A DNA stretch of 64,000 nucleotides, taken from the NCBI RefSeq assembly GCF_900110455.1, contig NZ_FOIS01000005.1:1-64000 (forward strand), in the 5' to 3' direction. Below are positions 20,742 through 37,375 of this stretch, one piece after another. Within the stretch, counting starts at the first letter, position 1. Each line of letters begins with the position of its first letter. Origin of the DNA: Natrinema salifodinae. GTDB lineage: Archaea > Halobacteriota > Halobacteria > Halobacteriales > Natrialbaceae. Position numbers and translations under genes: made by a program. Under the pieces are notes generated by a model, which saw only the letters and a list, made by a program, of their open reading frames with translations, made no database searches and was not told the origin of the DNA.

Positions 20742-20761
20742 CGGCCGCCGACCGCCGACCA

Positions 20762-20771
20762 AGAATTAAGA
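20762..20771 (+). promoter_or_regulatory. TATA-like box deciding the TusA-like gene start
   Basis: agaattaaga is centred 28 bp before the GTG at 20795. This favours GTG 20795 over the in-frame GTG at 20780. Confidence 0.4.
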
Positions 20772-20794
20772 CGCTCTCCGTGCTATCCTCTCTC

Positions 20795-21064: not shown

Positions 21065-21137
21065 CCGCTCGGCCGGTGACCGCCGCGACGTCGTTTCAGC
21101 CGACGCCGATCCTCCCGTCGTCCGATCCGTCGTCGCG

Positions 21138-23600
21138 TCATTCTTCTCGGCGCTCTCGACGTTCGATCGCGTCCCGGACGTCGGCCGGAGTGATCGGTAA
21201 CTCGGTCAGCCGCACGCCGACCGCGTCGCGGATGGCGTTGCTCAGCGCCGGCGGAACGCCGTTCGTCGGTAACTCGCCGATGGACTTCGCGCCGAACGGG
21301 CCGGTCGGCTCGTGGGTCTCGACCAGGATCGTTTCCATCGGCGGGTGATCCGTCGTCCGAGGCATGCCGTACTGACGGAATCCCTTGGTCTGCGGCGTGC
21401 CGTCCTCGTCGAACGCCAGGCCGCCGCTCGTCGCGTATTCGAGACTCATGTGTTGCCCGCCCTCGACCTGTCCCTCCGCAAGGGCCGGATTGATCGCGAC
21501 GCCGCAATCGGCGGCGTAGGCCAGCTTATTGATGTCGAACTCGCCGGTTTCCCCGTTCACGGTGACGTCCACGAACTGCGCGCCGAACGGCGGGGGACTC
21601 TCGTCCGTCGAATGGTGGCCGTCGCCCATGATCTGTTCGCGCTCGTCGTGGCCGTACGTCGCCTCGTACCCGAGCTCCTCGAGCCCGACGCTCGCTCCCG
21701 TCTCCTCGCTGTACACTTCGCCGTCGCCGGTTTCGAGGTTCGCTTCCGGTTCCTCGAGGAGTTTCGAGCCCCAGTAGAGGATGCGCTCTTTGGCGTCCTC
21801 GGCTGCCTTCTTGACGGCCGTCCCGCTGATGTACGTCGTCGAGGAGGCGTACGAGCCGTAGTCGAACGGCGTAATATCGGTGTCCGACGACGTGACGACG
21901 ATTTCGTCCGGGCGACAGCCGAGTACTTCGGCCGCGATTTGGGTGAACATGGTGTCGTTGCCGGTCCCGGTGTCGACGCCGCCGACGTGGAGGTGAAACG
22001 AGCCGTCCTCGTTCATCTTGAGCTTAGCCGCGCCCAGTTCTCTGCCGGCGACGCCGCTGCCCTGCGCACACATCGCCATGCCGACGCCGCGATAGAGGTG
22101 AGCCGCGTCGGGTTGCTCGAGATCGTCCCAGCCGATCGCCTCCTTCCCGCGTTCGATGCACTCCTCGAGGCCGCACGAGCGAATCCGTCGAGCGAAGCGG
22201 TCGTCGTCCTTGAGAATGACTGACGCGGTGTCGAGATTGCCCTCCCGAATCGCGTGTCGACGCTTGAAGTCGACGGGATCGAATCCGAGGTCGCGGGCGA
22301 CCTCGTCTACGTGCGCCTCGACGGCGAAGTGGCCTTGCGGGGCGCCGTACCCCCGCATCGCGGCACCCATCGGGAGGTTCGTGTGGACGACGTCGCCCTC
22401 GAACCGGAGGTTCGCCACGCGCGGGTACAGGGGGAGGGCCTTGGTTCCGACGTTCGAGGCGACGGTCATCCCGTGAGTGCCGTAGGCTCCGGAGTTCGAG
22501 CGCGCGTAGAGGTCCATCGCGACGAGATCGCCCTCGTCGGTTACCGCCGTCCTGATGCGCATTCGCATCGGATGGCGCGACCGGAGCGCGGAGAACTCCT
22601 CCTGCCTCGTCATCTCGAGCTTGACCGGCCGCTCGGCTTCGAGGTGGAGCGCGAACGTGATCGGCTCGATCGCCATCTCCTGTTTCGACCCGAACCCGGC
22701 GCCGACGCGCGGCTTCTCCACGCGAACGTCGCGGATCGGCACGTCGAAGACGTGCGACAGCTGGCGCCGCGTGTGATTCGGGACCTGCGTCGCCGTGATA
22801 AACGTGTAGCGCCCGTCCTCGTCGGTGTACGCGATCGTCGTGTGCGGTTCGGGGACGCAGTGCGATTGATACGGCGTCTCCAGTTCGGTTTCGTGAACGT
22901 GGACGTCGTCGCGCTCGAACGCGGCCTCGACGTCGCCGATCTCTCCATCGAAGCGTGACTCGACGTTTCGCTCGTACTCCGCCCCGCTCTGTGCGTTTTC
23001 GACTTCGTCGTCGTCGAAGAGCCGCGGCGCGTCCGGGTCCGTCGCCGCTTCGACGTCGAAGACGGGCTCGCGTTCGTCGTACTCGACGTCGATCGCTCGA
23101 GCGGCCCGGTCCGCGAGTTCGCCGGTCTCGGCCGCGACGGCCGCGATCGGATCCCCGACGAACCGGACGTGCCGTCTGAGGACCCGCATGTCCCACGGGC
23201 TCGGTTCCGGATAGGACTGCCCGGAACTCGAGTACAACGTGTCGGGGACGATGTCGTCCCAGGGCGTGACGACCGCGTAGACGCCGTCCATCGCTTCGGC
23301 CTCGCTCGTATCGATCCCCGTCACATAGCCGTGGGCGATCTCGCTGCGGACGACTTTACCGTGCGCGAGGTCGGGGAACCGGCGGGCATAATCGGCTGTG
23401 TATCGTGCGGCTCCCGTGACGATCTTCCGAGCGTCGTCCTTTTCGACGTCCTTCGAGAGGTTCACCCGCTCGTCTCCGCTCGTCCGGTCGTTCTCCGGTT
23501 CGTCACGGTCTCCCGGGTACTGCTCGGGGTCGGCGCTCCGTGCGGCGGCCGCTTCGACGTCGCGTTCCTCGGACTGCCGCGGCTCGTCCGGCGTACTCAT
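21138..23600 (-). CDS. Molybdenum hydroxylase large subunit 1 (xanthine dehydrogenase family)
   Basis: This 820-aa molybdopterin-binding subunit has the family motifs in order: CoxL-like N domain (KVVRSEIAHGYVTGID), GAGFGSKQEM, AMRGYGAPQG, VDTGTGNDTMFTQIAAEVLG, and FGAKSIGELPTNGVPPALSN with the catalytic glutamate in IGEL. Residues 1-55 are a charged, low-complexity leader. It overlaps its iron-sulfur partner by 4 bp. Enzymes of this family hydroxylate purines or N-heterocycles with water as oxygen source. Neighbouring selD/yqeC/yqeB suggests a Mo centre with labile selenium. It resembles subunit 2 (24321-26765) over its full length. The substrate is likely a purine. Confidence 0.9.
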   Translation of the reverse strand: MSTPDEPRQSEERDVEAAAARSADPEQYPGDRDEPENDRTSGDERVNLSKDVEKDDARKIVTGAARYTADYARRFPDLAHGKVVRSEIAHGYVTGIDTSEAEAMDGVYAVVTPWDDIVPDTLYSSSGQSYPEPSPWDMRVLRRHVRFVGDPIAAVAAETGELADRAARAIDVEYDEREPVFDVEAATDPDAPRLFDDDEVENAQSGAEYERNVESRFDGEIGDVEAAFERDDVHVHETELETPYQSHCVPEPHTTIAYTDEDGRYTFITATQVPNHTRRQLSHVFDVPIRDVRVEKPRVGAGFGSKQEMAIEPITFALHLEAERPVKLEMTRQEEFSALRSRHPMRMRIRTAVTDEGDLVAMDLYARSNSGAYGTHGMTVASNVGTKALPLYPRVANLRFEGDVVHTNLPMGAAMRGYGAPQGHFAVEAHVDEVARDLGFDPVDFKRRHAIREGNLDTASVILKDDDRFARRIRSCGLEECIERGKEAIGWDDLEQPDAAHLYRGVGMAMCAQGSGVAGRELGAAKLKMNEDGSFHLHVGGVDTGTGNDTMFTQIAAEVLGCRPDEIVVTSSDTDITPFDYGSYASSTTYISGTAVKKAAEDAKERILYWGSKLLEEPEANLETGDGEVYSEETGASVGLEELGYEATYGHDEREQIMGDGHHSTDESPPPFGAQFVDVTVNGETGEFDINKLAYAADCGVAINPALAEGQVEGGQHMSLEYATSGGLAFDEDGTPQTKGFRQYGMPRTTDHPPMETILVETHEPTGPFGAKSIGELPTNGVPPALSNAIRDAVGVRLTELPITPADVRDAIERRERREE

Positions 23601-24142
23601 CGGCGCCGATCACCCTTCGATGCGGCTTCCGTCGGGTTCGCTCCGCAGTCGCCTGCGTAGCCGCCGTCTGCGGTACCGCTTTGCGACCGCATGCGATCCG
23701 ACGCCTCCAACACCGCTTCGACGATTTTCTTGTAGCCGGTGCACCGACAGAGATTGTCCGAGAGCGCCTCCCTCACTTCGGCCTCGTTCGGCGAGGGGTT
23801 CTCCTCGAGGAGCGCTTTCGATCGCATGATCATTCCGGGAATGCAAAACCCACATTGCAGCGCCGAGTTATCGACGAACGCCCGTTGGATCGGGTGCAGG
23901 TCGTCCTGCGTGCCGAGCCCCTCGATCGTCTCGACGGCCGCTCCGTCGGCCCTCGCGACCGGCGTCACGCACGCCATCGCCGGTTCGCCGTCGACCTGAA
24001 CCGTACACATTCCGCACGCACCGGTGTCACAGCCTCGCTTCGCACCGGTGTACCCGTTTCGACGCAGCACGTCCAGGAGGAGGTCGGACTTCGATGCTTC
24101 GAACCGCCGCTCGGAACCGTTGATCGTACAGTCTATGTGCAT
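23597..24142 (-). CDS. Molybdenum hydroxylase [2Fe-2S] small subunit 1
   Basis: This 181-aa subunit has both clusters intact. The plant-type cluster uses GCDTGACGMC plus the Cys in AMACVTPV; the second uses CGFC and the NLCRCTG pair. The usual length is about 150-170, so a short charged C-terminal tail of about 25 residues is extra. I chose the ATG giving MHIDCTING rather than the one three codons earlier. It is the first gene of the S1-L1 pair, overlapping L1 by 4 bp. No FAD-binding medium subunit is encoded here. Confidence 0.9.
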   Translation of the reverse strand: MHIDCTINGSERRFEASKSDLLLDVLRRNGYTGAKRGCDTGACGMCTVQVDGEPAMACVTPVARADGAAVETIEGLGTQDDLHPIQRAFVDNSALQCGFCIPGMIMRSKALLEENPSPNEAEVREALSDNLCRCTGYKKIVEAVLEASDRMRSQSGTADGGYAGDCGANPTEAASKGDRRR

Positions 24143-24320
24143 GGCATTCACTCTCGAGAGGGTCGCTAACGCTAGTCTATCACATGGTGTCGCCTAAATA
24201 ACTGTCGAGGTTTTTGCTCTGCACCGGTCCGTAAAAAATAGCTTGCTGACGGTTGGCAACCGGTTGTGGACGGTCCGAGAAAACGAAGCGGCGATGCCAC
24301 ACCGCATCCGCGAGGCCGGT

Positions 24321-26765
24321 TCAGCCGTCGTCTTCGAGGGCGGTTCTGATTTTCTCCGCGGTAATCGGCATGTCGGTGATTCGGACGCCGACCGCCTGGC
24401 GGATGGCGTTGCTCAGCGCCGGCGGGACCGTGTTGGTCGGCACCTCTGCGACGGACTTCGCGCCGAACGGACCGGTCGGCTCGTGCGTTTCGACCAGGAT
24501 CGACTCGATCGTCGGCGTCTCCGCGGCCGTCGGCCAGTCGTACTCGTCGAAGCTCGTTACGTTCGCCTGGCCGTCGTCGTCGAACGTGATGCCCTCGCAG
24601 ACGGCCATCTCGTAGCTCATGTGGTTCGCCCCTTCGGCCTGGCCTTCCGCCATTCCCGGGTTGATCGCGACCCCGCAGTCGACCGCGACGACGAGTTTGT
24701 TCACGTCGAATTCGCCGGTCGCCTCGTTTACGGTGACGTCCGCGAACTGTGCGGCGAACGGCGGTGGGCTCTCTTCCGTACAGTGGGTCCCCTTGCCGAG
24801 GATGTGCTCGCGCTCGTCGTGACCGTAGGCGGCTTCGTAGCCGATTTCCTCGAGTTCGACGCTCGCATCCGTCTCCTCGCTGTAAACCTCGCCGTCGCCG
24901 GTTTCGAGGTTCGCTGCCGGCTCCTCGAGGAGCTTCGAGCCCCAGTGGAGGATCCGCTCTTTGGCGTCCTCGGCGGCCTTCTTGACCGCCATGCCGCTGA
25001 TGTACGTCGTCGAGGAGGCGTACGCCCCGTAGTCGAAGGGCGTAATGTCGGTGTCGGCGGATTTGACGACGATGTCCGTCTCGTCGCAGCCGAGCACCTC
25101 GGCCGCGATCTGCACGAACGCGGTGTCCGCCCCCGTCCCGATGTCGACGCCGCCGACGTGAAGGTGGAACGAGCCGTCCTCGTTCATCATGAGCTGTGCG
25201 GCGCCGAGTTCGTCTCCCGCGACGCCCGTTCCCTGTGCCGAGAGCGCCATGCCGATTCCGCGGTGGCGGTGCTCCGCGTCGGGCTGCTCGCGGTCGTCCC
25301 AGCCGATCGCTTCCTTCCCGCGTTCGATGCACTCGTCGAGCCCGCACGAACGGATGCGACGCTCCGCGCCTTCGCCGCCCATCATGCCGGCGATCTCGTC
25401 GAGATCGCCGACTTCCATGTAGTTCTGCTGTCGGAACTCGATGGGATCGAGCCCGAGGTCGCGGGCGACCTCGTCGAGGTGACCCTCGAGCGCGAGCGTC
25501 CCCTGGGGGGCGCCGTAGCCGCGCATCGCACCGGTTTGCGGCGTATTCGTGTGCACGATGTCGGCCTCGAACCTCGCGTTCGGCACCTTCGAGTACAGCG
25601 GCATCGGCTTGCTCCCCACGTTTCCCGCGACCGTCATTCCGTGGCTTCCGTACGCGCCCGTGTTCGAGAGGGCGTACAGATCGATCGCCTCGATGGACCC
25701 GTCGTCGGTGATCGCGGTTCGAGCCCGCACTTTCATCGGGTGGCGCGAACGCATCGCGTAGAACTCCTCCTCGCGCGTCGCCTCGTAGATCACGGGTCGA
25801 TCGGCCGCAATCGACAGCGCGAGCGGAATCGGCTCGACGACCATCGCCTGTTTTCCGCCGAAGCCGCCGCCGACGCGGGGCTTCGAAACGCGTACGTCGC
25901 GGATGGGGATGTCGAACAGGTGCGCCAACTGGCGGCGCGTGTGGTTCGGCACTTGGGTGCTCGTGACGAGCACGTACCGATCGTCTTCGTCGGTGTACGC
26001 GAGCGAGGTGTGTTTCTCGATCTGGGCGTGGGACTGCCGGATCGTCTCCCACTCGGTCTCGTGGACGTGAACGTCGTCGCTGTCGAGGGCTGCATCGACG
26101 TCGCCGATTTCGCCTTCGATGTGGGACATCCGGTTGCGGTCGTAGTCGTGCCCGACGATTTCGTTCTCGACCTCGTCGTCCGCGAACAACTGTGGAGCGT
26201 CCTCGGAGTAGGCCTCCTCCGGATCGAGCACGTAGTCCGCTTCGTCGTACTCGACGTCGACGCGCTCCGCCGCGGCGCGGGCGGTGTCGGCGTCTTCCGC
26301 CGCGATTGCCGCGATCGGGTCGCCGACGTACCGGACGTGCTCGTTGAGCACGTTCATGTCCCACGGGCTCGGTTCGGGGTACGACTGGCCCGCGCTCGTG
26401 TACTTCGAGTCGGGGACGTCGTCGGACCACGGCGTCAGGACAGCGTAGACGCCGTCCATCGCTTCGGCCTCGCTCGCGTCGATCTCCGTCACGTAGCCGT
26501 GGGGGATCTCGCTCCGCACGACCGAAGCGTGTGCGAGGTCGGGAAACCGCTTCTCGTAATCCGCGGTGTACTTCGCTCGACCGGTGACGAGCTTTGGATC
26601 GTCGTCTTTCTCGGCCGGACGCGAGACGCTGGCTCGCTCGTCGGGCGCCAGGTTGTTGTTCTCCGGTTCGTCCCACTCGAGGGGGTGGTCCTCGAGTTCG
26701 CGGGATTCCTGCTCCGGTTGCGATGCGGTACCGCCGTCTGGTTGTGGATCGTCTGCGTCGGTCAT
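24321..26765 (-). CDS. Molybdenum hydroxylase large subunit 2 (xanthine dehydrogenase family)
   Basis: This 814-aa subunit is parallel to large subunit 1 and keeps GGGFGGKQAM, AMRGYGAPQG, VDIGTGADTAFVQIAAEVLG and FGAKSVAEVPTNTVPPALSN with the catalytic glutamate in VAEV. The N terminus again has an acidic, low-complexity leader of about 55 residues. I chose the ATG at 26765, which sits 4 bp after the small subunit stop; an earlier ATG at 26813 would overlap it by 44 bp. Differences from subunit 1 around the active site suggest another substrate in the same pathway. Confidence 0.9.
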   Translation of the reverse strand: MTDADDPQPDGGTASQPEQESRELEDHPLEWDEPENNNLAPDERASVSRPAEKDDDPKLVTGRAKYTADYEKRFPDLAHASVVRSEIPHGYVTEIDASEAEAMDGVYAVLTPWSDDVPDSKYTSAGQSYPEPSPWDMNVLNEHVRYVGDPIAAIAAEDADTARAAAERVDVEYDEADYVLDPEEAYSEDAPQLFADDEVENEIVGHDYDRNRMSHIEGEIGDVDAALDSDDVHVHETEWETIRQSHAQIEKHTSLAYTDEDDRYVLVTSTQVPNHTRRQLAHLFDIPIRDVRVSKPRVGGGFGGKQAMVVEPIPLALSIAADRPVIYEATREEEFYAMRSRHPMKVRARTAITDDGSIEAIDLYALSNTGAYGSHGMTVAGNVGSKPMPLYSKVPNARFEADIVHTNTPQTGAMRGYGAPQGTLALEGHLDEVARDLGLDPIEFRQQNYMEVGDLDEIAGMMGGEGAERRIRSCGLDECIERGKEAIGWDDREQPDAEHRHRGIGMALSAQGTGVAGDELGAAQLMMNEDGSFHLHVGGVDIGTGADTAFVQIAAEVLGCDETDIVVKSADTDITPFDYGAYASSTTYISGMAVKKAAEDAKERILHWGSKLLEEPAANLETGDGEVYSEETDASVELEEIGYEAAYGHDEREHILGKGTHCTEESPPPFAAQFADVTVNEATGEFDVNKLVVAVDCGVAINPGMAEGQAEGANHMSYEMAVCEGITFDDDGQANVTSFDEYDWPTAAETPTIESILVETHEPTGPFGAKSVAEVPTNTVPPALSNAIRQAVGVRITDMPITAEKIRTALEDDG

Positions 26766-26769
26766 GGTC

Positions 26770-27273
26770 TCACTGTTGCGGTCGGTCGCCGCCGTCGGTC
26801 GCGACGGCCCCATCGCCGTTCAGTCGATCGGCGGCGTCGAGGATCGCCTCGACCGGTTTCTGATAGCCCGTACACCGACACAGATTGTCGTCGATCGCCT
26901 CCCGAACCTCGGCTTCGCTCGGGTTCGGAGTCTCATCGAGCAGTTCCTTCGCCTGGATGATCATCCCCGGAATGCAGAACCCGCACTGGACCGCGAAGGT
27001 ATCGACGAATGCCTGCTGGATCGGATGCAGGTCGTCCTGCGTGCCGAGGCCCTCGACCGTCTCGATCGTCGCGCCGTCCGCGTCCCGAGCGGTCTCTCCG
27101 CAGGCCATCACGGCGTCGCCGTCGAGGAGCACCTTCGAGGCGCCACAGACGCCCCCATCACAGCCACACTTCACGCCCGTGTATCCTTCGCGCCGCAGAA
27201 CCGACGCGAGATCGTCGTCCGGGGCCGCTTCGATCGCTTTCGGTTCGCCGTTTACGGTTAGATCGAGCTGCAT
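26770..27273 (-). CDS. Molybdenum hydroxylase [2Fe-2S] small subunit 2 with an altered cluster ligand
   Basis: This 167-aa subunit has an intact second cluster (CGFC and NLCRCTG). In the plant-type cluster the expected Cys-x4-Cys-x2-Cys reads CDGGVCGAS, so the third ligand is Ser. An extra Cys lies two residues before the first (KCGC). The fourth ligand (VMACGET) is present. The DNA is unambiguous (TCG). The enzyme may bind this cluster with Ser or the shifted Cys, or may have lost it. It is the first gene of the S2-L2 pair and is divergent from the AzgA-type permease. Confidence 0.88.
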   Translation of the reverse strand: MQLDLTVNGEPKAIEAAPDDDLASVLRREGYTGVKCGCDGGVCGASKVLLDGDAVMACGETARDADGATIETVEGLGTQDDLHPIQQAFVDTFAVQCGFCIPGMIIQAKELLDETPNPSEAEVREAIDDNLCRCTGYQKPVEAILDAADRLNGDGAVATDGGDRPQQ

Positions 27274-27651
27274 GCTGCTCCCTCTTGTAAGTGTGTGACT
27301 AGCATACTGGTCGTAGTGTACGTTGCGAGACAGCGGTACAAATATTTTTGCCGCATCACCCGCGGTGCGGATCGACCCACCCGTTTCGACGGTGGTTTCG
27401 AACATTACACGCCCGTCCCGCTATGCGCTATGACGAATCTTTTCGACCTCGGCCGTGTGGAGATCGCACTCCTCGGAGGAAGCGACCCGACATCGGCGAA
27501 GATCTTGCGCTCCGTGGCCTCGAACGAGCGGTCATCTTCCTCACAGTGACGGGGGACAGTCTCTACCGACATGTGTCGCCGACCAGGCGGCGTTTGCCAC
27601 GGTGTGGCGGAATGTGCGAATCCGTGTGGAACGAGCGGGTACCCTGGGAAA

Positions 27652-27661
27652 CTATATAACG
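27652..27661 (+). promoter_or_regulatory. TATA box of the AzgA-type permease gene
   Basis: ctatataacg is centred 27 bp before the ATG at 27683, a textbook leaderless arrangement. The 409-bp divergent region (27274-27682) must also hold the promoter for the S2-L2 operon. I see no other gene in it. Confidence 0.5.
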
Positions 27662-27682
27662 ATATGTCATAACACACCTCGC

Positions 27683-29119
27683 ATGTCGGATTCGACTGGC
27701 ACGAAATCGCGACTGGCGGGGTACTTCGGGTTCGAGGGGACGAGAGCGTGGCTGGCGGAGTACTTCGAGTTCGAAGAACACGGAACCGACTTACAAACCG
27801 AGTTGATCGCCGGGACGACGACGTTCCTCACGATGTCGTACATTATCGTCGTCAACCCCGCGATTCTGTCGCAGGCGATCCAGATAGAGGGATACACCAC
27901 GCAGGCGGTGTTCCAGATGATCGCCATCGCGACCATCCTGTCGTCGGTAGCCGGTATTCTCGTGATGGCACTGTACGCGAACCGGCCGTTCGGCTTAGCG
28001 CCGGGGATGGGATTGAACGCCTACTTCGCGTTTACCGTCGTGATACTTCTCGGCGTCCCCTGGCAAACGGCGCTGGCCGCAGTGTTCGTCGAGGGAATTA
28101 TTTTCGTGGTGATGACGGCCGTCGGCGCGAGACGGTACATCATCGAACTGTTCCCAGAACCGGTCAAGTTCGCCGTGGGCGCGGGTATCGGGTTGTTCCT
28201 CCTGTTGCTTGGGCTGATCGAGATGAACGTCATCGTTTCGAGCGATGCGACGCTGGTCCAGTTGAACGACGTTGCGACCGACCCGATCGCACTCGTCGCG
28301 CTCGCGGGGCTCGCGTTTACGTTCGTGCTTTACGCGTACGACGTCACCGGGGCGATCATCGTCGGAATTCTCACGACGTCGGTCGTCGGCTGGGTACTCA
28401 CGCTCGGCGGGGTCGTCGAACGGGGGGTACTCGCACCGGAGCAACTCTCCTCGGCACAGTACGACATCACGCCGCTAGTCGGTGCGTTCATCGAGGGTTT
28501 CGCCCGGATCGAACCGGCGACGTTCGTTCTGGTCGTGGTCACGTTCTTCTTCGTCGACTTCTTCGACACCGCGGGCACGCTGATCGGCGTCTCGCAGTTC
28601 GGCGGCTTCCTCGACGAGGATGGCGATCTGCCCGAGATGGACAAACCGCTGCTGGCCGACGCAGTCGGCACGACGTTCGGGGCGATGGTCGGGACGTCGA
28701 CGGTGACGACCTTCGTCGAGAGTTCGACGGGAATCGAGGAGGGGGGCCGAACGGGGATGACCGCGCTCACCGTCGGCGTCCTGTTTCTGCTCTCGCTGCT
28801 TGCCGTTCCGTTGATTACCGCGATTCCGCAGTACGCGTCGTATCTCGCGCTGGTCGTCGTCGGAATCATCATGCTGGAGGGCGTGACGGACATCGACTGG
28901 GACGACCCGGCCTGGCTGATTCCGGCCGGACTCACGATAACCATCATGCCGCTTACTGCTTCTATCGCAGACGGCCTGGCGGCGGGGATCATCAGCTATC
29001 CGATCATCAAAGCGTCGGCCGGCGAAATAGGCGACGTTCGACCCGGTCAATGGGTGCTGGCCGGAGCGTTCGTCCTTTACTACTACGTTTCCGCTGGCGG
29101 CGTGCTCTCCGGAGCGTGA
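27683..29119 (+). CDS. NCS2 purine permease, AzgA/GhxP type
   Basis: This 478-aa membrane protein has about 12-14 hydrophobic segments. The N-terminal TDLQTELIAGTTTFLTMSYI and NRPFGLAPGMGLNAYFAF blocks are diagnostic of AzgA-like hypoxanthine/guanine/adenine permeases, as are FFFVDFFDTAGTLIGVS and GTSTVTTFVESSTGIEEGGRTG. It probably imports purine bases with protons or sodium. It heads a plus-strand set with a second permease and adenine deaminase, which links uptake directly to deamination. Confidence 0.9.
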   Translation: MSDSTGTKSRLAGYFGFEGTRAWLAEYFEFEEHGTDLQTELIAGTTTFLTMSYIIVVNPAILSQAIQIEGYTTQAVFQMIAIATILSSVAGILVMALYANRPFGLAPGMGLNAYFAFTVVILLGVPWQTALAAVFVEGIIFVVMTAVGARRYIIELFPEPVKFAVGAGIGLFLLLLGLIEMNVIVSSDATLVQLNDVATDPIALVALAGLAFTFVLYAYDVTGAIIVGILTTSVVGWVLTLGGVVERGVLAPEQLSSAQYDITPLVGAFIEGFARIEPATFVLVVVTFFFVDFFDTAGTLIGVSQFGGFLDEDGDLPEMDKPLLADAVGTTFGAMVGTSTVTTFVESSTGIEEGGRTGMTALTVGVLFLLSLLAVPLITAIPQYASYLALVVVGIIMLEGVTDIDWDDPAWLIPAGLTITIMPLTASIADGLAAGIISYPIIKASAGEIGDVRPGQWVLAGAFVLYYYVSAGGVLSGA

Positions 29120-29279
29120 GTCACCGAGTTTCGGCCGGTAATCGGTTCCATCCCACTCTCCAATGTGGAACATATGTGTTTATATTATCGCCGGATGCGG
29201 ACAAATGATGGAAATTACTCAGGATATTTGACTAAACGATCTCTCCACAAAGCTTTATGACGACACGCAAGGATTTGCA

Positions 29280-30677
29280 ATGTGTTATCCCATGTCACCC
29301 AACGATGGGTCCATCGACCTGGCGTACGAACTAGAAGACAAGCCGCCGATGCCGAAGGCGGTTTTACTGGGACTGCAACACGTGGCAGCGATGTTCGTGC
29401 CGACGATCGCCGTGGCGATCATCGTCGCAGGTGCGATCGGAATCGGGTCGGGCGATACGACGTATCTCATACAGATGGTCCTTATCTTCTCCGGATTAGC
29501 GACGCTCGTGCAGGTGTTTCCGATCGGACCGGTCGGCGCCCGCCTTCCTATCGTTATGGGGTCGAGTTTCGCGTTCGTCGGTGCGGCGATATCGATCGGC
29601 GGCCAGTACGGGCTCGACGCGGTGTTCGGCGCTATCGTCATCGCGGCTCTGGTCGAAGTCCTCATCGGCTGGCAGTACAAACGAGTCAAACAGCTGTTCC
29701 CGCCGTTAGTCACCGGGCTCATCGTCATGATCATCGGCCTCTATCTCATCCCCACCGGGATGGACTACGCGGCCGGCGGCGCCGAAGCGGCCGATTACGG
29801 CGCGGTGCATCACCTCGCCCTCGCGGCGCTCGTCTTGGGGATCACCGTCGGCATGAACCTCTTTATGGATGGGGTGTGGCGCATCCTCAGTATCCTCATC
29901 GGCATCGTCGTGGGCTACGCCGCCGCTATCGCGATCGGTATCGTCGATTTCGGCGCGGTGGCGAACGCGAGTTGGTTCGCGCTCCCGCGGCCTGGTCGCT
30001 TCGGATTCTCGTTGGAGCCGATCGCGATACTGACGTTCGTCGCTATTCACATCACGGCGGCGATCGAATCGATCGGCGATATGTCCGGCATCACGGCGGC
30101 GGAGGGCCGTAATCCGGACGACAGCGAGATTCGCGGCGGCCTGATCGTCGACGGTCTCGGGAGTTCGCTCGGCGCCGTCTTCGGCGCGTTCCCGCTGACG
30201 ACGTTCTCTCAAAACGTCGGGATCATCAACTTCACCGGCGTGATGAGCCGGTACGTGGTGGGTATCGGTGGCGTCGTTTTGCTCGGGCTCGGATTCATTC
30301 CCAAGGTCAGCGCCGTCGTCGCGACGATTCCCGACTCCGTTCTCGGCGGCGCGGTGCTGGTCATGTTCGGGATGGTGATGGCGAGCGGTCTTCGACTCAT
30401 CTTCCTGAACGAACGGATGAACCGGCGCAACATGGTCATCATCGCCGTCTCGATCGGTCTCGGTCTCGGCGTCGAACTGCGACCCGAGATATTCGAGTCG
30501 ATGCCCCAGGGCGTCGACATCTTCTTCGGTAACGCGGTTATCATGACCGCGATCGCGGCGGTCCTCCTCAACACGCTCGTCCCGCGTCCGGACGGCGACT
30601 ACGACGTGGGGCTCGAGGAACCGATCGACGGTGACGATCCGTCTCCGCACGACCCGTCCGTCGTTCAGGAAGACTAA
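29280..30677 (+). CDS. NCS2 permease, uracil-xanthine (UraA/XanQ) type
   Basis: This 465-aa membrane transporter of the nucleobase-cation symporter 2 family has LGLQHVAAMFVPTIA at the N terminus, GPVGARLPIVMGSSFAFVGA, and the family signature region IGDMSGITAAEGRNP … GLGSSLGAVFGAFPLTTFSQNVGI. XanQ/UacT-type members import xanthine or urate. The start may be ATG 29280 or ATG 29292; a TATA-like ctttatgac at about 29250 fits either. An acidic cytoplasmic tail ends the protein. It lies directly before adenine deaminase. Confidence 0.9.
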   Translation: MCYPMSPNDGSIDLAYELEDKPPMPKAVLLGLQHVAAMFVPTIAVAIIVAGAIGIGSGDTTYLIQMVLIFSGLATLVQVFPIGPVGARLPIVMGSSFAFVGAAISIGGQYGLDAVFGAIVIAALVEVLIGWQYKRVKQLFPPLVTGLIVMIIGLYLIPTGMDYAAGGAEAADYGAVHHLALAALVLGITVGMNLFMDGVWRILSILIGIVVGYAAAIAIGIVDFGAVANASWFALPRPGRFGFSLEPIAILTFVAIHITAAIESIGDMSGITAAEGRNPDDSEIRGGLIVDGLGSSLGAVFGAFPLTTFSQNVGIINFTGVMSRYVVGIGGVVLLGLGFIPKVSAVVATIPDSVLGGAVLVMFGMVMASGLRLIFLNERMNRRNMVIIAVSIGLGLGVELRPEIFESMPQGVDIFFGNAVIMTAIAAVLLNTLVPRPDGDYDVGLEEPIDGDDPSPHDPSVVQED

Positions 30678-30804
30678 CCATGCACGCGACGCGCCAAACC
30701 AGGCGGAGTCCACACTGGACGGATCCGATCGATCGCCCGTCGATCCGGCCCGCTCCCGCCACAACGAACGACCGCGCGAACGAACGCGGGGGTCGGACGG
30801 ACGC

Positions 30805-32475
30805 ATGAACCGCGTCGACACACTCGTTCGGGGGTCGCTCGTCAACGTCAATACCGGTGCGATCGAGGATCGAGCGATCGCCATCGACGACGGTACCGTG
30901 GTCGCGCTCGAGGAGCGGCCGGCGGAGCGAGAACTCGAAGCCGAATACGTCGCTCCGGGGTTGATCGACGCACACAAACACGTCGAATCGAGCATGGTCA
31001 CGGTGCCCCAGTACGGCGAGGCGATGCTCCCCCGCGGCGTGACGAGTGTCGTTCACGATCCCCACGAGATCGCGAACGTCCTCGGTGCCGACGGCGTTCG
31101 GGCCGTCTTCGAAGATGCGACGAAGACGCCGTTGAAAGTACGGTTCAGCGTCCCCTCGAGCGTTCCGGCGTCGGGGCTGCAGGATAACGGAGCGACGCTC
31201 GACGCGGCGGACGTTACGGCGCTGCTCGACCACGACCACGTCGTCGCGCTCGGCGAGGTGATGGATCTGCCCGCGCTCGTCGAGGGCGAGACCGATCTTC
31301 ACGCGAAGATACGCGCCGCTCGAGAGCGAGGGTTGACCGTCGACGGCCACCTTCCGCAGGTGAGCGGATCGGATCTCCACGAGGCCGCACGATACCTCGA
31401 TACCGATCACGAGTGCATCACCGAAGCCGAAGCCCGCGAGAAGGTCGAGCTCGGGTTCCGAGTCTTCCTCCGAGAGGGGTCGTCGTCGAAGAACCTGGCC
31501 GATCTCGTCGGGCTCGTCGACGACGTCCCGACGCGTCGGCTCTCGCTGTGTTCGGACGATCGTGACGTCGTCGATCTGGTCGAAAACGGCGGCGTCGACT
31601 TCGCGGTGCGGAAAGCGATCGACGAGGGCGTCGATCCGATCGAAGCCGTCCAGATGGCGACGCTGAACACGGCCGAGTGCTACGATCTGCCGTTCGGTCG
31701 GATCGAGCCGGGCGCGCCGGCCGATCTCGTCCTACTCGAGGACCTCGAATCGTGGTCCGTCAAGCACGTACTCGTCGACGGCCGGATCGACCCGACGAGT
31801 ACCGATCGCGAGCCGTCGCCGACCGCACTCTCGACCCGGACCGTCGATTTCGACCCCGTTACGGGCAACGACGTGGCGATCGAGGCGGCGAACTCGGCGT
31901 CCGAGCGCGCCGAGGTTCGCGTTCTCGAACTCACCGGCGGCATTCAAACCGGACGCGCGGAAGCGACCCTCCCCGTCGTCGACGGCGTAATCCGACCGGC
32001 GCTCGACGAGGACGTGCTTCCGCTCGCGGTCATCGAACGACACGGTCGCGACGGCGGTATCGGCTGCGGATTCGTCCGCGGACTCGGCCTCGAGCGCGGC
32101 GCGATCGGTTCGACGGTCGCCCACGACGCGCACAACTGTCTCGTCGCCGGCACCGAGTACGACGCGATGGCACGCACTGCGAATCACCTCCGAGAAATCG
32201 ACGGCGGTATCGCCGTGTACGATCCGGACCGGGACGGCGAGGGGATCACGGCATTACCGCTGCCGGTCGCGGGGCTGATGTCCGACGATCCGCTGTCGGT
32301 CGTCTGCGAACGGTTCGAAGCAGTCGTCTCCCGCGCCGCGGACCTCGGACTCGGACGCCACGGGCTGATGACGCTCTCGTTCCTCGCTCTGGAGGTCATC
32401 CCCGAATATCGGTTGACGAACCGAGGGCTCGTCGACGTCGAACGCTGGGAACACGTCGACGTCGTCCTCGAATGA
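30805..32475 (+). CDS. ade: Adenine deaminase
   Basis: This 556-aa metalloenzyme converts adenine to hypoxanthine and ammonia. Key motifs are PGLIDAHKHVESSM, GVTSVVHDPHEIANVLG, VDGHLPQVSG, LCSDDRDVVDL and, near the end, GCGFVRGLGLERGAIGSTVAHDAHN. The second metal ligand position in the N-terminal HxH motif is kept (HKH). The ATG at 30805 was chosen because it begins the family-like MNRVDTLVRG. The length matches bacterial Ade. It follows the permease gene by 127 bp, and no convincing TATA box lies between, so cotranscription is likely. Confidence 0.92.
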   Translation: MNRVDTLVRGSLVNVNTGAIEDRAIAIDDGTVVALEERPAERELEAEYVAPGLIDAHKHVESSMVTVPQYGEAMLPRGVTSVVHDPHEIANVLGADGVRAVFEDATKTPLKVRFSVPSSVPASGLQDNGATLDAADVTALLDHDHVVALGEVMDLPALVEGETDLHAKIRAARERGLTVDGHLPQVSGSDLHEAARYLDTDHECITEAEAREKVELGFRVFLREGSSSKNLADLVGLVDDVPTRRLSLCSDDRDVVDLVENGGVDFAVRKAIDEGVDPIEAVQMATLNTAECYDLPFGRIEPGAPADLVLLEDLESWSVKHVLVDGRIDPTSTDREPSPTALSTRTVDFDPVTGNDVAIEAANSASERAEVRVLELTGGIQTGRAEATLPVVDGVIRPALDEDVLPLAVIERHGRDGGIGCGFVRGLGLERGAIGSTVAHDAHNCLVAGTEYDAMARTANHLREIDGGIAVYDPDRDGEGITALPLPVAGLMSDDPLSVVCERFEAVVSRAADLGLGRHGLMTLSFLALEVIPEYRLTNRGLVDVERWEHVDVVLE

Positions 32476-32563: not shown

Positions 32564-32935
32564 ATGATCCACCTCGGGGTCTTACTCACCGGCAGCCCCT
32601 TCGACAGCGAACGGTGGCGGACGGCCTACGAACTCGGGCGGGCCGCCCTGAACGCCGGACATGCGGTGACGTACTTCCACTATCTCGACGGCGCGTACGT
32701 ACCGGTGACCGGCCAGCACCTCCCCGACTGTTCGGACGCGGGCCTGTACGACGAGATGCCGACGGAGAAGTTCCAGGAACTGATCGACGACGGCGCCGAG
32801 GTCATCTGCTGTGGACTCTGCGTGAACGCGCGGGGGATCGACGCCGACGCCGAGTATCCCGACGGCGTCGAGGTCGGTCTGCTGCCGGACCTCGCGGACA
32901 TACTCGGCGACGCGGACAGGGTGATCTCGCTATGA
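32564..32935 (+). CDS. DsrE/TusD-like sulfurtransferase subunit
   Basis: This 123-aa protein of the DsrE/F fold begins MIHLGVLLTGSPFDSER, typical of TusD/DsrE. A cysteine-rich segment near residues 80-90 (ICCGLCVNARG) contains the likely persulfide-carrying Cys in the CVNARG position. TusD/DsrE relays sulfur from TusA. It overlaps the next gene by 4 bp. Its partners here are DsrF- and DsrH-like genes, the XdhC-YqeB fusion and nearby selD, so it may relay sulfur or selenium to the molybdenum cofactor. Confidence 0.8.
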   Translation: MIHLGVLLTGSPFDSERWRTAYELGRAALNAGHAVTYFHYLDGAYVPVTGQHLPDCSDAGLYDEMPTEKFQELIDDGAEVICCGLCVNARGIDADAEYPDGVEVGLLPDLADILGDADRVISL

Positions 32936-33285
32936 AACGAGAGGTCGTCGTCCTCCTCACGCGAGCGCCGTACGGTCGGGTCCACGTGCCGGAAGGGCTT
33001 CGGGCTGCGCGCGGCGTCGCGGCCGGGTTCGATCGCCACGACGTCTCGGTCGTCTTCACGCAGGACGGCGTCTACGCCGCCCGAGCGGACGTCGATCGAG
33101 ATGCGCTCAACATGACGGACCACCTCGACGACTTCGCCGAGGAAGGCGGCGACCTGTTCGTCGACGAAGCGTCGATGACCGAGCGCGACGTTGCGCCCTC
33201 GGTCATCGCCCCGGACGTCGCCGTTCGACCAGGCGAAGAGATCGTATCGATGATCGACCAGGCGGATCACACCCTCGACTTCTGA
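32932..33285 (+). CDS. DsrF/TusC-like protein
   Basis: This 117-aa DsrE-fold protein (MKREVVVLLTRAPYGR … GVAAGFDRHDVSVVFTQDGVYAA) corresponds to the TusC/DsrF position in a DsrEFH set. It has no cysteine, as expected for the structural rather than catalytic subunit. It overlaps the DsrE-like gene by 4 bp, and the DsrH-like gene starts 2 bp after its stop. A heteromeric complex of all three is inferred. Confidence 0.75.
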   Translation: MKREVVVLLTRAPYGRVHVPEGLRAARGVAAGFDRHDVSVVFTQDGVYAARADVDRDALNMTDHLDDFAEEGGDLFVDEASMTERDVAPSVIAPDVAVRPGEEIVSMIDQADHTLDF

Positions 33286-33287
33286 CG

Positions 33288-33533
33288 ATGCTCTATCTGA
33301 TCGACAAACCGATGGCGGAGATCGGCCTCAGAACGGCAGCGAACGACGCCGACGGGACGATCGTGCTGATACAGGACGGGGTCCTCCTCGATCCCGATCT
33401 CGACCGACCGACCTACGCGGTCGCCCAGGACGTCGAGAAGCGCGGCGTCGCCCTTCCCGATCGAATCGACACGATCGCGTACGCCGAACTCGTCGACCGC
33501 CTGGCCGAGGAGGAGGTGAAAAGTTTCGTATGA
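33288..33533 (+). CDS. DsrH/TusB-like protein
   Basis: This 81-aa protein (MLYLIDKPMAEIGLRTA … TIVLIQDGVLLD … DRIDTIAYAELVDRL) fits the small TusB/DsrH subunit. The cysteine found in many DsrH proteins is absent. Its stop overlaps the ATG of the XdhC-YqeB fusion by 4 bp, so production is coupled to that maturation factor. Confidence 0.72.
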   Translation: MLYLIDKPMAEIGLRTAANDADGTIVLIQDGVLLDPDLDRPTYAVAQDVEKRGVALPDRIDTIAYAELVDRLAEEEVKSFV

Positions 33534-35107
33534 CGATCTTCGACCGCGTGGACGAACTCGTCACCCGGGGACGCCCGGCCGCGATGCTAACGATCGTCGG
33601 AAAAGACGGAAGCGCGCCGCGAGACGTGGGCGCGAAGATGCTCGTCACCGACGACGGCGAGCACGGCACGATCGGCGGCGGGACGGTCGAGGGGCTCGCC
33701 GTCGACGAAGCCCGCGAGGTCCTTCGCGGCGACGCCGAGCCCGGCGTCCGGACGTACGAACTGCGCCCCGGTGGCAACACCGGGATGGTCTGTGGCGGGT
33801 CCATGGACGTCTTCGTCGATCGCATCCGCGGGCGTGCGAGACTCTACGTCGCGGGCGGCGGCCATATCGCGGTCGAACTCGCGGCGATGGGGCGGCAACT
33901 CGGGTACGACGTCACGGTCGTCGACGATCGCGAGGAGTACGCGGCGCCGGAGCGGTTCCCCGACGGGGTCGACGTCGTCCACGGCGACTACGGCGAGACC
34001 CTGTCCGAACTGCCGATGACGTCGGAGACCGCAGTCGCCGTCGCAACGCGGAGCGGGACGTTCGACCGCCGGGCCGTCGCCGCCGCGCTCGACGGCGAGG
34101 CGGGGTACGTCGGCGTCGTCGCGAGCGAAACGAAGGCGGAACACATCTTCGACTCGCTGCTCGAGAACGGCTACTCGCGCCGAGCGCTCGTCCGGGTTCG
34201 GGCCCCCGTCGGACTCGACCTCGGCGGCGGCGGTCCGGAAGACGTCGCGCTCTCGATCCTCGCGGAACTGCACCGCGACCGCTACGACGCGAGCGGCGAC
34301 CGCGCGACTCGACACGACCTCGAGGACCTCGTCGTCGTCCGCGGCGGCGGCGATCTCGGGAGCGGCGTGGTCTACCGTCTCCACCAGGCGGGCTTTCCCG
34401 TCGTCGTCACCGAGACGGCCGAGCCGACCGTCGTCCGCCGGGCGGTCGCCTTCGGGGCGGCGATGTACGAAGACGAAATCGCCGTTCAAGGCGTGACGGG
34501 CCGTCGCGCGGACGACGTCGACGACGCGCTTGCCGTCCTCGAAGACGGTGCGGTGCCGGTGCTCGAGGATCCCACCGCTAGCGTTATCGACGTCCTCGAT
34601 CCCGCGGTCGTCGTCGACGCGATCATGGCCAAAGGGAAGACGGACACCGGTACCAGGCGAGACCTCGCGGACGTCGTCGTCGGTCTCGGACCCGGCTTCG
34701 AGGCCGGCGAGAACGTGGACGCGGTCGTCGAAACGGATCGCGGCCACGAGCTTGGACGCGTCATCTACGACGGAACGCCCACTCCGTACGACGGCGAACC
34801 GGGCGAGCGACGGGGGTATACCCACGAACGCGTCCTTCGGGCGCCGAGCGACGGACGCTGGTCGCCGTCGGTCGAAATCGGCGAAATCGTCGAGGCCGGT
34901 TCCGTCGTCGGTCGCGTCGACGACGATCCGGTCACCACCGAGATCGACGGACTCGTTCGCGGGCTCGTTCACGACGGCGTCTCCGTTTCAGACGGGGCGA
35001 AGCTCGGCGACGTCGATCCGCGAGAGGACGTCGACTACGCGAAGATTTCGGATAAAGCCCTCTGTCTCGGCGGCGGTGTCCTCGAAGCGGTGCTCAAGCT
35101 CTCGTAG
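33530..35107 (+). CDS. XdhC-YqeB fusion, selenium-dependent molybdenum hydroxylase maturation factor
   Basis: This 525-aa protein joins two families. Residues 1 to about 245 are XdhC/CoxI-like (GKDGSAPRDVGAKMLV, IGGGTVEG, GNTGMVCGGSMDVF, LYVAGGGHIAVELA). XdhC binds molybdenum cofactor and accepts sulfur for the Mo centre before insertion into apo-enzyme. Residues about 262-525 are the YqeB/EF2563 family (VVVRGGGDLGSGVVYRL, IMAKGKTDTGT, DVVVGLGPGFEAGENVD, ISDKALCLGGGVLEAVL), a marker of selenium-dependent molybdenum hydroxylases. The fusion would place cofactor sulfuration or selenation in one polypeptide. It is the last gene of its operon and convergent with selD. Confidence 0.9.
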   Translation: MTIFDRVDELVTRGRPAAMLTIVGKDGSAPRDVGAKMLVTDDGEHGTIGGGTVEGLAVDEAREVLRGDAEPGVRTYELRPGGNTGMVCGGSMDVFVDRIRGRARLYVAGGGHIAVELAAMGRQLGYDVTVVDDREEYAAPERFPDGVDVVHGDYGETLSELPMTSETAVAVATRSGTFDRRAVAAALDGEAGYVGVVASETKAEHIFDSLLENGYSRRALVRVRAPVGLDLGGGGPEDVALSILAELHRDRYDASGDRATRHDLEDLVVVRGGGDLGSGVVYRLHQAGFPVVVTETAEPTVVRRAVAFGAAMYEDEIAVQGVTGRRADDVDDALAVLEDGAVPVLEDPTASVIDVLDPAVVVDAIMAKGKTDTGTRRDLADVVVGLGPGFEAGENVDAVVETDRGHELGRVIYDGTPTPYDGEPGERRGYTHERVLRAPSDGRWSPSVEIGEIVEAGSVVGRVDDDPVTTEIDGLVRGLVHDGVSVSDGAKLGDVDPREDVDYAKISDKALCLGGGVLEAVLKLS

Positions 35108-35158
35108 CCGAGCTCGAGCCGCCGCCGACCGTAATTCGCGTTCGAGGACGAGGGTTCG

Positions 35159-36193
35159 TTACCTTCCTCGGGAGATCCGCTCTATCGTCGGGTCGACGAA
35201 CGTCACGCCGTCGCCGGCCGTTACGCGGCCGACTTCACGGTGGAAAACGCCGGCAGTGGTCAGCGACGCCTCGAACTCGTCGGTGCGCCGTTCGGGGACC
35301 GACAGCAGCAGTCCGCCGCTCGTCTCCGCGCTCTCGCCGTCCTCGAGCCCGTAGCCGAAGAGCCGCGAGAGTTCGAGCGTCCCGTCGATGAGCGGGAGAC
35401 GCGTGAGTTCGACGCCGACGCCGGCGTTCGCTGCGAGGTGACGCGTCTGTCCGAGGAGGCCAAAGCCCGTGATATCGGTCGCGGCCGTCGCGAACTCGCG
35501 AGAGGCCGTCATCGCCGCTCTGTTCGGCGTCGTCATCCACGCGAGCGCCTCGTCGGCGATGGCCCGAACGGGACGGGTCGCCGTTTCGGTGATCGTCTCG
35601 GCGAACTCGCCGTCCCGCACTCGATACGCGCCCATCGCCGCCTGCGTTCCGAGTGGTTTCGTCAGGTAGAGGCGATCGGACGGTGCGGCCCCGCCCGTCC
35701 GCAGGAGGTCCTCCGGCGGCGCGGTCGCGACGACGGTTCCGCCGGCGATCGGCCACGGATTCGTGATCGTGTGGCCTCCCGCAACGACCCCATCCATCTC
35801 GTCCACTGCGTCGACGATGCCGCGCAGAATTTCCGTCCCGGCGTCCGCTACCTTCCGCGGAAGTCCCAGAACGACCAGGAACGTGAGATCGTCACCGGCG
35901 CCCGTCGCGAACGCGTCGCTTGCGGTGTTACACGCCGCGACGCGGCCGAACTCGTACGGATCGTCGACGATGGGCGTAAAGAAGTCGGTCGTCGTCACGA
36001 GACAGCGATCGTCGGCGATTGCCCGGGCGGCCGCGTCTTCGCCGACGCCGAAGCGGAGTTCCTCTTGTGTCTCCGTCAGCCCGACGTCCGCGAGCAGCGA
36101 TTCGAGGTCGCCCTGTCCGACCTTACAGGAACAGCCGTGGAGTTCGGCGTACTCGGTCAGGGCCGGCGAGGGATCGCTGCTATCGTCGGTCAT
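35159..36193 (-). CDS. selD: Selenophosphate synthetase SelD
   Basis: This 344-aa ATP-dependent enzyme makes monoselenophosphate from selenide. The active-site segment HGCSCKVGQGDLESLL holds Cys21, Cys23 and Lys24, matching the catalytic Cys-x-Cys-Lys of SelD proteins (no Sec or UGA codon here). Other blocks are TTDFFTPIVDDPYEFGRVAACN, SDAFATGA, GGHTITNPWPIAGG, TKPLGTQAAMGAY and ATDITGFGLLGQ. I chose ATG 36193, which overlaps the TusA-like gene by 14 bp. No SelA, SelB, tRNA-Sec or SelU is present, so its product probably serves the molybdenum hydroxylases. Confidence 0.93.
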   Translation of the reverse strand: MTDDSSDPSPALTEYAELHGCSCKVGQGDLESLLADVGLTETQEELRFGVGEDAAARAIADDRCLVTTTDFFTPIVDDPYEFGRVAACNTASDAFATGAGDDLTFLVVLGLPRKVADAGTEILRGIVDAVDEMDGVVAGGHTITNPWPIAGGTVVATAPPEDLLRTGGAAPSDRLYLTKPLGTQAAMGAYRVRDGEFAETITETATRPVRAIADEALAWMTTPNRAAMTASREFATAATDITGFGLLGQTRHLAANAGVGVELTRLPLIDGTLELSRLFGYGLEDGESAETSGGLLLSVPERRTDEFEASLTTAGVFHREVGRVTAGDGVTFVDPTIERISRGR

Positions 36194-36452
36194 CGTCCTC
36201 CGCTCGTCGACGGCTTCCGGCGGCTTCCGTCGGCCGAATGAGCAACTCGAAGCCGCCGTCGCGGTCCTCGGACGGCGGCCGGTCCTCGACATCGTATCCG
36301 TGTTTCGTACACGTTCGACGGAGATTGCGCTTCGCCGGCGGGTAATCGCCGCGGACGAGCAATTCGTCGTCCGGTTCGAGGTCGGACAGCCGTCGACGGA
36401 CGATGAGAGCGGGACGCGGGCAGACCTCCCCTGTGACGTCAACACACTCCAT
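36180..36452 (-). CDS. TusA/SirA-like carrier protein 2, paired with selD
   Basis: This 90-aa TusA-like protein has MECVDVTGEVCPRPALIVRR with the active Cys in CPRP, and GDYPPAKRNLRRTCTKHGYDV. It is closely related to the copy at 20795-21064. The gene overlaps selD, and both probably come from one transcript starting near 36452 (TATA-like box 36474-36486). TusA-domain proteins of the YedF type accompany selenium metabolism in bacteria. Here it may hand sulfur or selenium between SelD, the DsrEFH-like proteins and the XdhC-YqeB fusion. Confidence 0.82.
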   Translation of the reverse strand: MECVDVTGEVCPRPALIVRRRLSDLEPDDELLVRGDYPPAKRNLRRTCTKHGYDVEDRPPSEDRDGGFELLIRPTEAAGSRRRAEDDDRR

Positions 36453-36616: not shown

Positions 36617-37375
36617 ATGAAGCTCGCCGCTGCGCTCGGTCTCGGCGACGATGAACTGGTCTCGTTTGTCGGCGCCGGCGGCAAAAAAACCGCCATGGGC
36701 CAACTGATCGCCGAGGCGAGCGACCGCGGGCTGGACGCGGGATACACCACTTCGACCCACATGCCCCCGCCGCCAGACCTCCCGCTCGTCCTCGCTCCGC
36801 CGGATCACGTTCGGGACCGACTCGACGAGGCGGAATCCCCGGTCGCGTTCGCGCGCGACCGCGTAACGGATCCGAAGCGCGTCGACGAAAAAGTACGAGG
36901 GTACTCCCCTCCGGTAGTGGACTCGTTATTCGAGGAGCGCTGCTTCGACTGGCTGCTCGTCAAGGCCGACGGCGCCCGGATGCGTGAATTCAAAGCTCCG
37001 GGCCCGGACGAGCCGCCGATTCCGCGGGCGAGCACCTGCGTCGTTCCGGTAGCGTCCGTTCGAGCGGCCGGCCGACCGCTTACGGACGACGTCGTTCACC
37101 GCGTCGACCGAGTCAAGCGGTGCGTCGATATCTCGGCGGGCGACGTCCTCACCCCGGAGCACATCGGGACGGTTCTCGCGCATCCCGATGGAGGGCTGAA
37201 ACACGTCCCCGACGGTGCGACGGTCGTGCCGCTCGTGAACAAAGCGGACGACGCGACCCTCGAGAACCGTGCAAACCGAATCATCTCGACGGCGCTCGAG
37301 CACACTTCGCGATTCGATCGCGGTCTCCTCTGTTCGTTTCAGGAAAACACGTTGAAAATCATACGGGAACGGTGA
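36617..37375 (+). CDS. yqeC: Selenium cofactor biosynthesis protein YqeC
   Basis: This 252-aa protein has the YqeC marks: a P-loop-like FVGAGGKKTAMGQL near residue 18, VKADGARMREFKAP, and ASTCVVPVASVRAAGRPL. YqeC occurs with YqeB and SelD in genomes with selenium-dependent molybdenum hydroxylases; its chemical role is not known, but a nucleotide-dependent step in making the selenium-containing cofactor is likely. The ATG at 36617 begins the family-like sequence. It is divergent from tusA-selD and ends the island. Confidence 0.9.
   Translation: MKLAAALGLGDDELVSFVGAGGKKTAMGQLIAEASDRGLDAGYTTSTHMPPPPDLPLVLAPPDHVRDRLDEAESPVAFARDRVTDPKRVDEKVRGYSPPVVDSLFEERCFDWLLVKADGARMREFKAPGPDEPPIPRASTCVVPVASVRAAGRPLTDDVVHRVDRVKRCVDISAGDVLTPEHIGTVLAHPDGGLKHVPDGATVVPLVNKADDATLENRANRIISTALEHTSRFDRGLLCSFQENTLKIIRER

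Follow-up and report, generated by a model that had tools for sequence, protein, structure and literature searches.

The window analysed here is a stretch of 64,000 nt from Natrinema salifodinae (contig NZ_FOIS01000005.1, positions 1-64,000, assembly GCF_900110455.1), in which three small genes for DsrE-, DsrF- and DsrH-like proteins lead into a gene for an XdhC-YqeB fusion protein, followed by selD (selenophosphate synthetase) paired with a tusA-like gene, and then by yqeC. Sequence comparisons across 391 haloarchaeal genomes, with about 20 kb read around every yqeB locus, indicate that DsrEFH and TusA are an obligatory and co-inherited part of the haloarchaeal selD/xdhC-yqeB/yqeC trait. We lean towards the view that the products of the dsrEFH-like and tusA-like genes serve as a set of chalcogen carriers reserved for the maturation of selenium-dependent molybdenum hydroxylases, in a relay whose cargo (selenium), direction (from TusA/SelD through DsrE) and final acceptor (XdhC-YqeB) we infer.

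YqeB (TIGR03309) exceeded its cut-off in 30 of the 391 genomes, and the ortholog of the DsrE-like protein (176-277 bits) was retrieved from exactly these 30; the runner-up of the DsrE search was a stump of 33 residues in one further genome (G129) and all remaining matches scored 32 bits or less. SelD follows the same distribution (238-277 bits in the 30 YqeB genomes, over cut-off, and at most 97 bits in the others). An earlier note on this DNA had regarded the occurrence of Dsr-like genes mostly without selD and yqeB as evidence that would count against a carrier chain, and no such genome was encountered, the DsrE ortholog always lying in the same block. The order dsrE-dsrF-dsrH-yqeB, with selD-tusA next on the opposite strand and yqeC beyond them, is conserved at all 30 yqeB loci, as are the ATGA overlaps joining dsrE to dsrF and dsrH to yqeB. 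Because the gene order and these two overlaps are kept throughout, the arrangement is conserved far more than chance would allow. The 4-bp overlap with xdhC-yqeB described in the note is therefore invariant; its three overlapping dsr genes hold for dsrE and dsrF, dsrF and dsrH being 2 bp apart, and the 14-bp overlap of tusA with selD exists in the window but is not shared by relatives, in which this junction varies from -14 to +17 bp. The flanks of the block are rearranged, with adenine deaminase and permease genes upstream at some loci and hydroxylases at others, and molybdenum hydroxylase genes lie near the block in most relatives.

The 30 carriers belong to nine genera in five families and are scattered within these families. 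This DsrE is encoded by all 15 haloarchaeal plasmid records that have YqeB and by none other of 72,556 plasmid records, named plasmid-borne examples coming from Haloarcula, Natrinema, Haloterrigena, Natronococcus, Halostella and Haladaptatus. Haloarcula hispanica ATCC 33960 is among the strains with the block. The Fisher p value for co-occurrence (1.4e-45) is inflated by shared ancestry and treats the genomes as more independent than they are, the block probably travelling as one unit. In G129 (L074, G129:C102, 2274-2513) adenine deaminase and permease genes are intact, a dsrE stump of 33 codons runs into unrelated sequence with a hydroxylase gene beside it, and profile searches of the genome found neither SelD nor YqeB; as the flank persists, only 33 codons of dsrE remain and SelD and YqeB are missing, the block genes have been lost together in this genome. 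The location on secondary replicons in many strains and the possible spread as a unit would fit dsrEFH being a passenger caught in a mobile cluster and kept by linkage, with no role in selenium use. This is very hard to credit, given that the genes are intact in 30/30 genomes, that overlaps and cysteines have stayed invariant while identity has fallen to 54% for selD and 44% for yqeC, that the ratios of nonsynonymous to synonymous substitution rates are well under 1 and denote purifying selection (0.07-0.17 for dsrE, 0.11-0.35 for dsrF, 0.21-0.49 for dsrH), and that the genome retaining only a stump of dsrE is also devoid of SelD and YqeB.

Conserved cysteines restrict the proteins that could carry a chalcogen. 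DsrE Cys82, Cys83 and Cys86 (CCGLC) and TusA Cys11 (CPxP) and Cys48 are invariant in the 30 genomes; no cysteine is conserved among the 30 aligned DsrF-like or DsrH-like sequences, which leaves TusA and DsrE as the only proteins of the set able to carry a chalcogen covalently. In the TusBCD and DsrEFH complexes studied previously, sulfur is carried by Cys78 of TusD/DsrE alone, and DsrH Cys20 can be dispensed with in vitro (PMC3397948); the latter, known from DsrEFH type I of sulfur oxidisers, has no conserved counterpart in the DsrH-like sequences. Cys83 of the CGLC motif aligns with TusD Cys78, the exact equivalence of Cys83 or Cys86 being uncertain, and the cysteine pair of this motif corresponds to the CGxC motif of the DsrE domain of YedF. 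The three contiguous genes match the broad DsrE, DsrF and DsrH families (PF02635, PF02635 and, below threshold, PF04077), and against the TusD, TusC and TusB equivalog models they score 21.2 (cut-off 89.25), 38.4 (TIGR03010, cut-off 94.15) and 23.4 bits (TIGR03011, cut-off 49.2). The equation of these proteins with TusBCD made in the earlier note thus stands as an analogy at the level of Pfam families and falls as an assignment to the equivalogs. A single-sequence structure prediction of DsrE was unusable (predicted local distance difference test score, pLDDT, 46).

The genomic context of the block speaks for a role with selenium-dependent molybdenum hydroxylases, rather than one in tRNA thiolation, because selD is an orphan in all 30 genomes and TusE/DsrC is absent from all of them. 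The other uses of selenophosphate that were looked for, SelU (TIGR03167) and SepSecS (TIGR03531), were found in none of the 30 genomes, leaving selD with no other detected use (bacterial-type SelA was not searched for). DsrC/TusE (PF04358), the terminal carrier of the thiolation relay, was found in none of 32 genomes, which undermines the alternative of tRNA thiolation that the note had kept in view. An ordinary TusABCD-type relay for tRNA 2-thiolation, standing beside selD by happenstance, could account for the distant likeness to TusD, TusC and TusB; it is nevertheless highly improbable, given the low equivalog scores, the missing terminal carrier and the absence of the DsrE ortholog from 361 of the 391 haloarchaea, in which tRNA thiolation follows the ubiquitin-like SAMP2/NcsA route. 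Dissimilatory sulfur oxidation with DsrEFH of type I or II was likewise rejected, with neither DsrC nor a DsrH cysteine present (DsrAB was not searched for).

A large part of the cluster is already known. The association of an orphan SelD with a TusA/SirA-like protein, XdhC-YqeB and YqeC was published for Haloarcula marismortui by Haft and Self 2008 (PMC2276186) and Zhang et al. 2008 (PMC2432076), as the selenium-dependent molybdenum hydroxylase trait, of which plasmid pNG700 of H. marismortui was one of the founding examples; the same genes and molybdenum hydroxylases constitute the present locus, which pNG700 also carries. These accounts differ from ours in that the DsrE/F/H-like genes between the hydroxylase and yqeB are undiscussed in the texts searched: the pNG700 record holds two DsrE-family genes and a 'hypothetical protein' at this place, and 'DsrE' appears once in the 2008 texts, for a bacterial protein, and never for these genes. 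No paper joining DsrEFH with selD/yqeB was found in the open-access literature, subscription journals lying outside the search. Only the DsrEFH part of the cluster therefore appears to be new, and the statement of the earlier note that no described system has the full combination applies to this part and not to selD, TusA, XdhC-YqeB and YqeC.

Several characterised systems resemble the haloarchaeal set in part. DsrEFH of type I and II and TusBCD share with it a run of three short neighbouring genes arranged as E(D)-F(C)-H(B), a carrier cysteine in E/D and TusA as a partner; the haloarchaeal set differs by the lack of DsrC/TusE and of the DsrH cysteine, by its distance from the TusBCD models and by its tie to selD/xdhC-yqeB rather than to dsrAB or tRNA thiolation. 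DsrEFH type II was defined in sulfate reducers in a 2026 paper that does not mention selenium (PMC13293266). In Metallosphaera cuprina, an archaeal DsrE-type protein (DsrE3A) and TusA also transfer sulfur groups (PMC4175335), but the group is thiosulfate and the system is tied to Hdr-like sulfur oxidation, with no selenium genes. YedF (TIGR03527) joins a TusA domain to a DsrE-type domain with CGxC and is linked to selD in genomes, as is the haloarchaeal tusA, which adjoins selD at all 30 loci. YedF is however one fused chain, whereas the haloarchaeal TusA and DsrE are encoded by separate genes, DsrE with DsrF/DsrH-like partners, and the sequence similarity is very low: the tusA product reaches 28.1 bits with TIGR03527 (cut-off 110), over its N-terminal part only, and the DsrE-like protein has no match. 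YedF has been reported as absent in archaea, and the CGxC motif of its DsrE domain was described in the same work (PMC5322559). As a functional analogy, TusA and DsrEFH could be seen as occupying the place held in bacteria by YedF.

The XdhC-YqeB fusion comprises a chaperone domain for sulfuration of the molybdenum cofactor (Moco; residues ~1-250) and a selenium-cofactor maturation domain (268-525). Its AlphaFold2 model has a pLDDT of 87.6; a fold search with the full model returned mainly XdhC and Rossmann matches, and the first half matches 2we7 (Z 19.5). Two cysteines are invariant, Cys88 in the XdhC domain (30/30) and Cys512 near the end of YqeB. Cys88 is the probable counterpart of the conserved Cys82 of Rhodobacter capsulatus XdhC, whose bound Moco receives sulfur from NifS4 (PMC2997495). 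In Rhodobacter the terminal chalcogen is added to Moco while XdhC holds it, and the XdhC domain of the haloarchaeal fusion would offer the same platform, the haloarchaeal locus differing by the lack of a desulfurase and the presence of SelD and the fused YqeB domain. Cys512 lies within SDKALCLGGG in haloarchaeal YqeB; bacterial proteins have A, S, C or N at this position, often with another cysteine about nine residues upstream. Cys512 was discarded as a specifically haloarchaeal acceptor, since it also occurs in 13/85 bacterial proteins, and is retained as a candidate only. Residues 300-498 of the YqeB half partly align with the ectoine-utilisation protein EutE/DoeB (Z 11 over 73 residues, 18% identity), a likeness that may help explain the YqeB ligand.

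In the relay that we favour, selenium at the persulfide/perselenide level would be mobilised by a housekeeping cysteine desulfurase whose gene lies elsewhere, or would come from reduced selenite, and TusA (Cys11), encoded in the same unit as SelD, would bring it to SelD. DsrE alone would then carry the atom on its CGLC motif within a DsrEFH complex in which DsrF and DsrH serve as scaffold, and this complex would dock on XdhC-YqeB and deliver selenium in activated form to the molybdenum cofactor bound in the XdhC domain, with Cys88 and Cys512 as candidate acceptors, before the charged cofactor is inserted into the XdhA-like hydroxylases. Entry through TusA/SelD and exit through DsrE are suggested by the pairing of TusA with SelD and of DsrEFH with XdhC-YqeB. 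Cargoes and clients of this kind have precedents, as the TusA-like PA1006 is persulfidated and required for molybdenum homeostasis (PMC3568144) and PRDX6 carries perselenide to SEPHS2 (PMC11327102). The specific proposal that DsrEFH receives selenium from SelD/TusA in the form of a perselenide bound to protein, and transfers it straight to the molybdenum cofactor on XdhC-YqeB, is put forward tentatively, as a possibility with somewhat less than even chances. The carrier chain to XdhC-YqeB predicted in the earlier note is thus strongly borne out in its dedication to the selenium-cofactor trait, and far less so in the exact relay.

The main rival to a selenium relay keeps the same carriers and changes their cargo: TusA-DsrEFH would replace a NifS4-type desulfurase and put the sulfido ligand on the XdhC-bound cofactor, SelD and YqeB then swapping selenium in or serving other hydroxylases of the cluster. 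Established sulfur transfer by TusA and DsrEFH, sulfuration of XdhC-bound Moco by NifS4 and the lack of a desulfurase in the cluster all fit this scheme. We hold it to be unlikely, since the DsrE ortholog is absent from all haloarchaea outside the trait and tracks selD exactly, and since G129 keeps a hydroxylase gene with no DsrE ortholog. Alternatively, the CGLC motif of DsrE could reduce or trap selenotrisulfides or selenide, supplying SelD safely or limiting toxicity, with no hand-over to XdhC-YqeB. The invariance of the CxxC motif agrees with such a redox buffer, as do the redox role proposed for YedF (PMC5322559) and the unexplained rise of TusAD transcripts (4.5 log2-fold) in selenium-starved Methanococcus maripaludis (PMC11097638); the invariant translational coupling is with xdhC-yqeB and not with selD, and we judge this explanation improbable.

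Outside the haloarchaea, the trait is organised differently. An orphan-selD operon of Enterococcus reads sclA-selD-yedF-DUF3343-yqeC-yqeB, and YedF/TusA lies near yqeB in about a quarter of 80 bacterial loci, selD in a similar number; the haloarchaeal block loci have neither YedF nor DUF3343 nor SclA. Haloarchaeal profiles detected DsrEFH beside bacterial yqeB at none of these 80 loci, a weak negative because PF04077 misses even the DsrH of the window in a whole-genome scan. PF04077 matches occurred in 8 of 52 yqeB genomes, the bacterial ones being unplaced relative to the yqeB contig, and the match in the archaeon G573 was rejected as a DsrH since it overlaps a lone DsrE-type open reading frame. 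The nearest relatives of DsrE beyond the haloarchaea (55 bits or less) are found in other members of the phylum; at six such loci (L166-L171) the DsrE-type genes adjoin an ArsR-like regulator and transporter-like genes, several with DsrF/DsrH-type open reading frames, and no selD is present. In the sample examined, the coupling of DsrEFH with yqeB is a haloarchaeal feature.

Some of these comparisons weigh against a dedicated selenium relay. Two archaea that are not Halobacteria (G565 and G573, loci L075 and L076) encode YqeB but lack DsrEFH within ~9 kb of it, and as they and the bacteria do without it, the chemistry of the trait does not require DsrEFH. The similarity of DsrE to the YedF domain (9-17 bits) is no better than that to TusD (15.8 bits), and Cys512 is missing from most bacterial YqeB proteins. 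The 30 genomes cannot be counted as independent cases, since the block has probably spread as a unit on megaplasmids, and the role of YqeB in the pathway comes from one genetic study in C. difficile (PMC11448449). At L075 and L076, molybdenum hydroxylase and ATP-binding cassette transporter-like genes lie near YqeB, with no selD within about 9 kb, and at least one of the two archaea has a separate XdhC.

The genes of the block and its neighbourhood are listed in the table below; SelD, YqeB and YqeC are recognised by adjacent matches that each exceed a curated cut-off. The region 18063-32475 appears devoted to purine salvage and catabolism, with an allantoate amidohydrolase family protein and a 5'-deoxyadenosine deaminase in addition to the genes tabulated. 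The second tusA-like gene reported by the earlier note before the hydroxylase operons is present, convergent to an XdhA-like gene; its product resembles the selD-linked TusA (GDYPPAE, RRTC motif), and a separate second copy is visible in few other 20-kb loci (e.g. L039, L048), outside the conserved core. The note's observation that the window has no cysteine desulfurase is upheld, as all 12 PF00266 matches of the genome lie on other contigs.

Table. Genes of the selD/xdhC-yqeB block and of its neighbourhood in the N. salifodinae window
Feature	Position	Strand	Evidence and remarks
dsrE-like	32564-32935	+	PF02635 67.5 bits; predicted carrier subunit, invariant CCGLC (Cys82, Cys83, Cys86)
dsrF-like	32932-33285	+	PF02635 44.7 bits; 4-bp ATGA overlap with dsrE; no conserved Cys
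dsrH-like	33288-33533	+	PF04077 21.1 bits (cut-off 24.4); 2-bp gap to dsrF; no conserved Cys
xdhC-yqeB fusion	33530-35107	+	TIGR03309 351.7 bits (cut-off 220); PF02625 and PF13478 over cut-off; 4-bp ATGA overlap with dsrH
selD, selenophosphate synthetase (orphan)	35159-36193	-	TIGR00476 254 bits (cut-off 125); NF010705 over cut-off
tusA-like carrier	36180-36452	-	PF01206 56.1 bits (cut-off 28.6); upstream of selD, 14-bp overlap
yqeC, selenium cofactor marker gene	36617-37375	+	TIGR03172 178 bits (cut-off 73)
Second tusA-like paralog (CPLP, SIRRTC)	20780-21064	+	PF01206 52.9 bits; near hydroxylase genes
Molybdenum hydroxylase large subunit, XdhA-like, likely client	21138-23600	-	PF02738, PF20256, PF01315; XdhA family 652 bits (below cut-off of 780)
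Second molybdenum hydroxylase large subunit, XdhA-like, likely client	24321-26813	-	Domain and family searches
[2Fe-2S] subunit of hydroxylase	26770-27405	-	PF01799
Xanthine permease	29280-30677	+	TIGR03173 443 bits (cut-off 414)
Adenine deaminase	30631-32475	+	TIGR01178 488 bits (cut-off 472.5); directly upstream of dsrE

Of the routes by which selenium is incorporated, that into molybdenum hydroxylases has been described as the one least understood (PMC11448449). If the proposed relay is true, it would be the first of the DsrEFH/TusBCD type to carry selenium, and would provide the missing step from selenophosphate to the Mo=Se cofactor. The block is small, invariant and genetically accessible in Haloarcula, and it singles out two proteins as carriers and two cysteines as candidate acceptors. 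It also offers a reading of the puzzling bacterial YedF, which may be a fused carrier for the same step, TusA and DsrE acting in haloarchaea as its split, DsrEFH-based counterpart, and it could give a context to the selenium response of TusAD in M. maripaludis, if those proteins are related in role.

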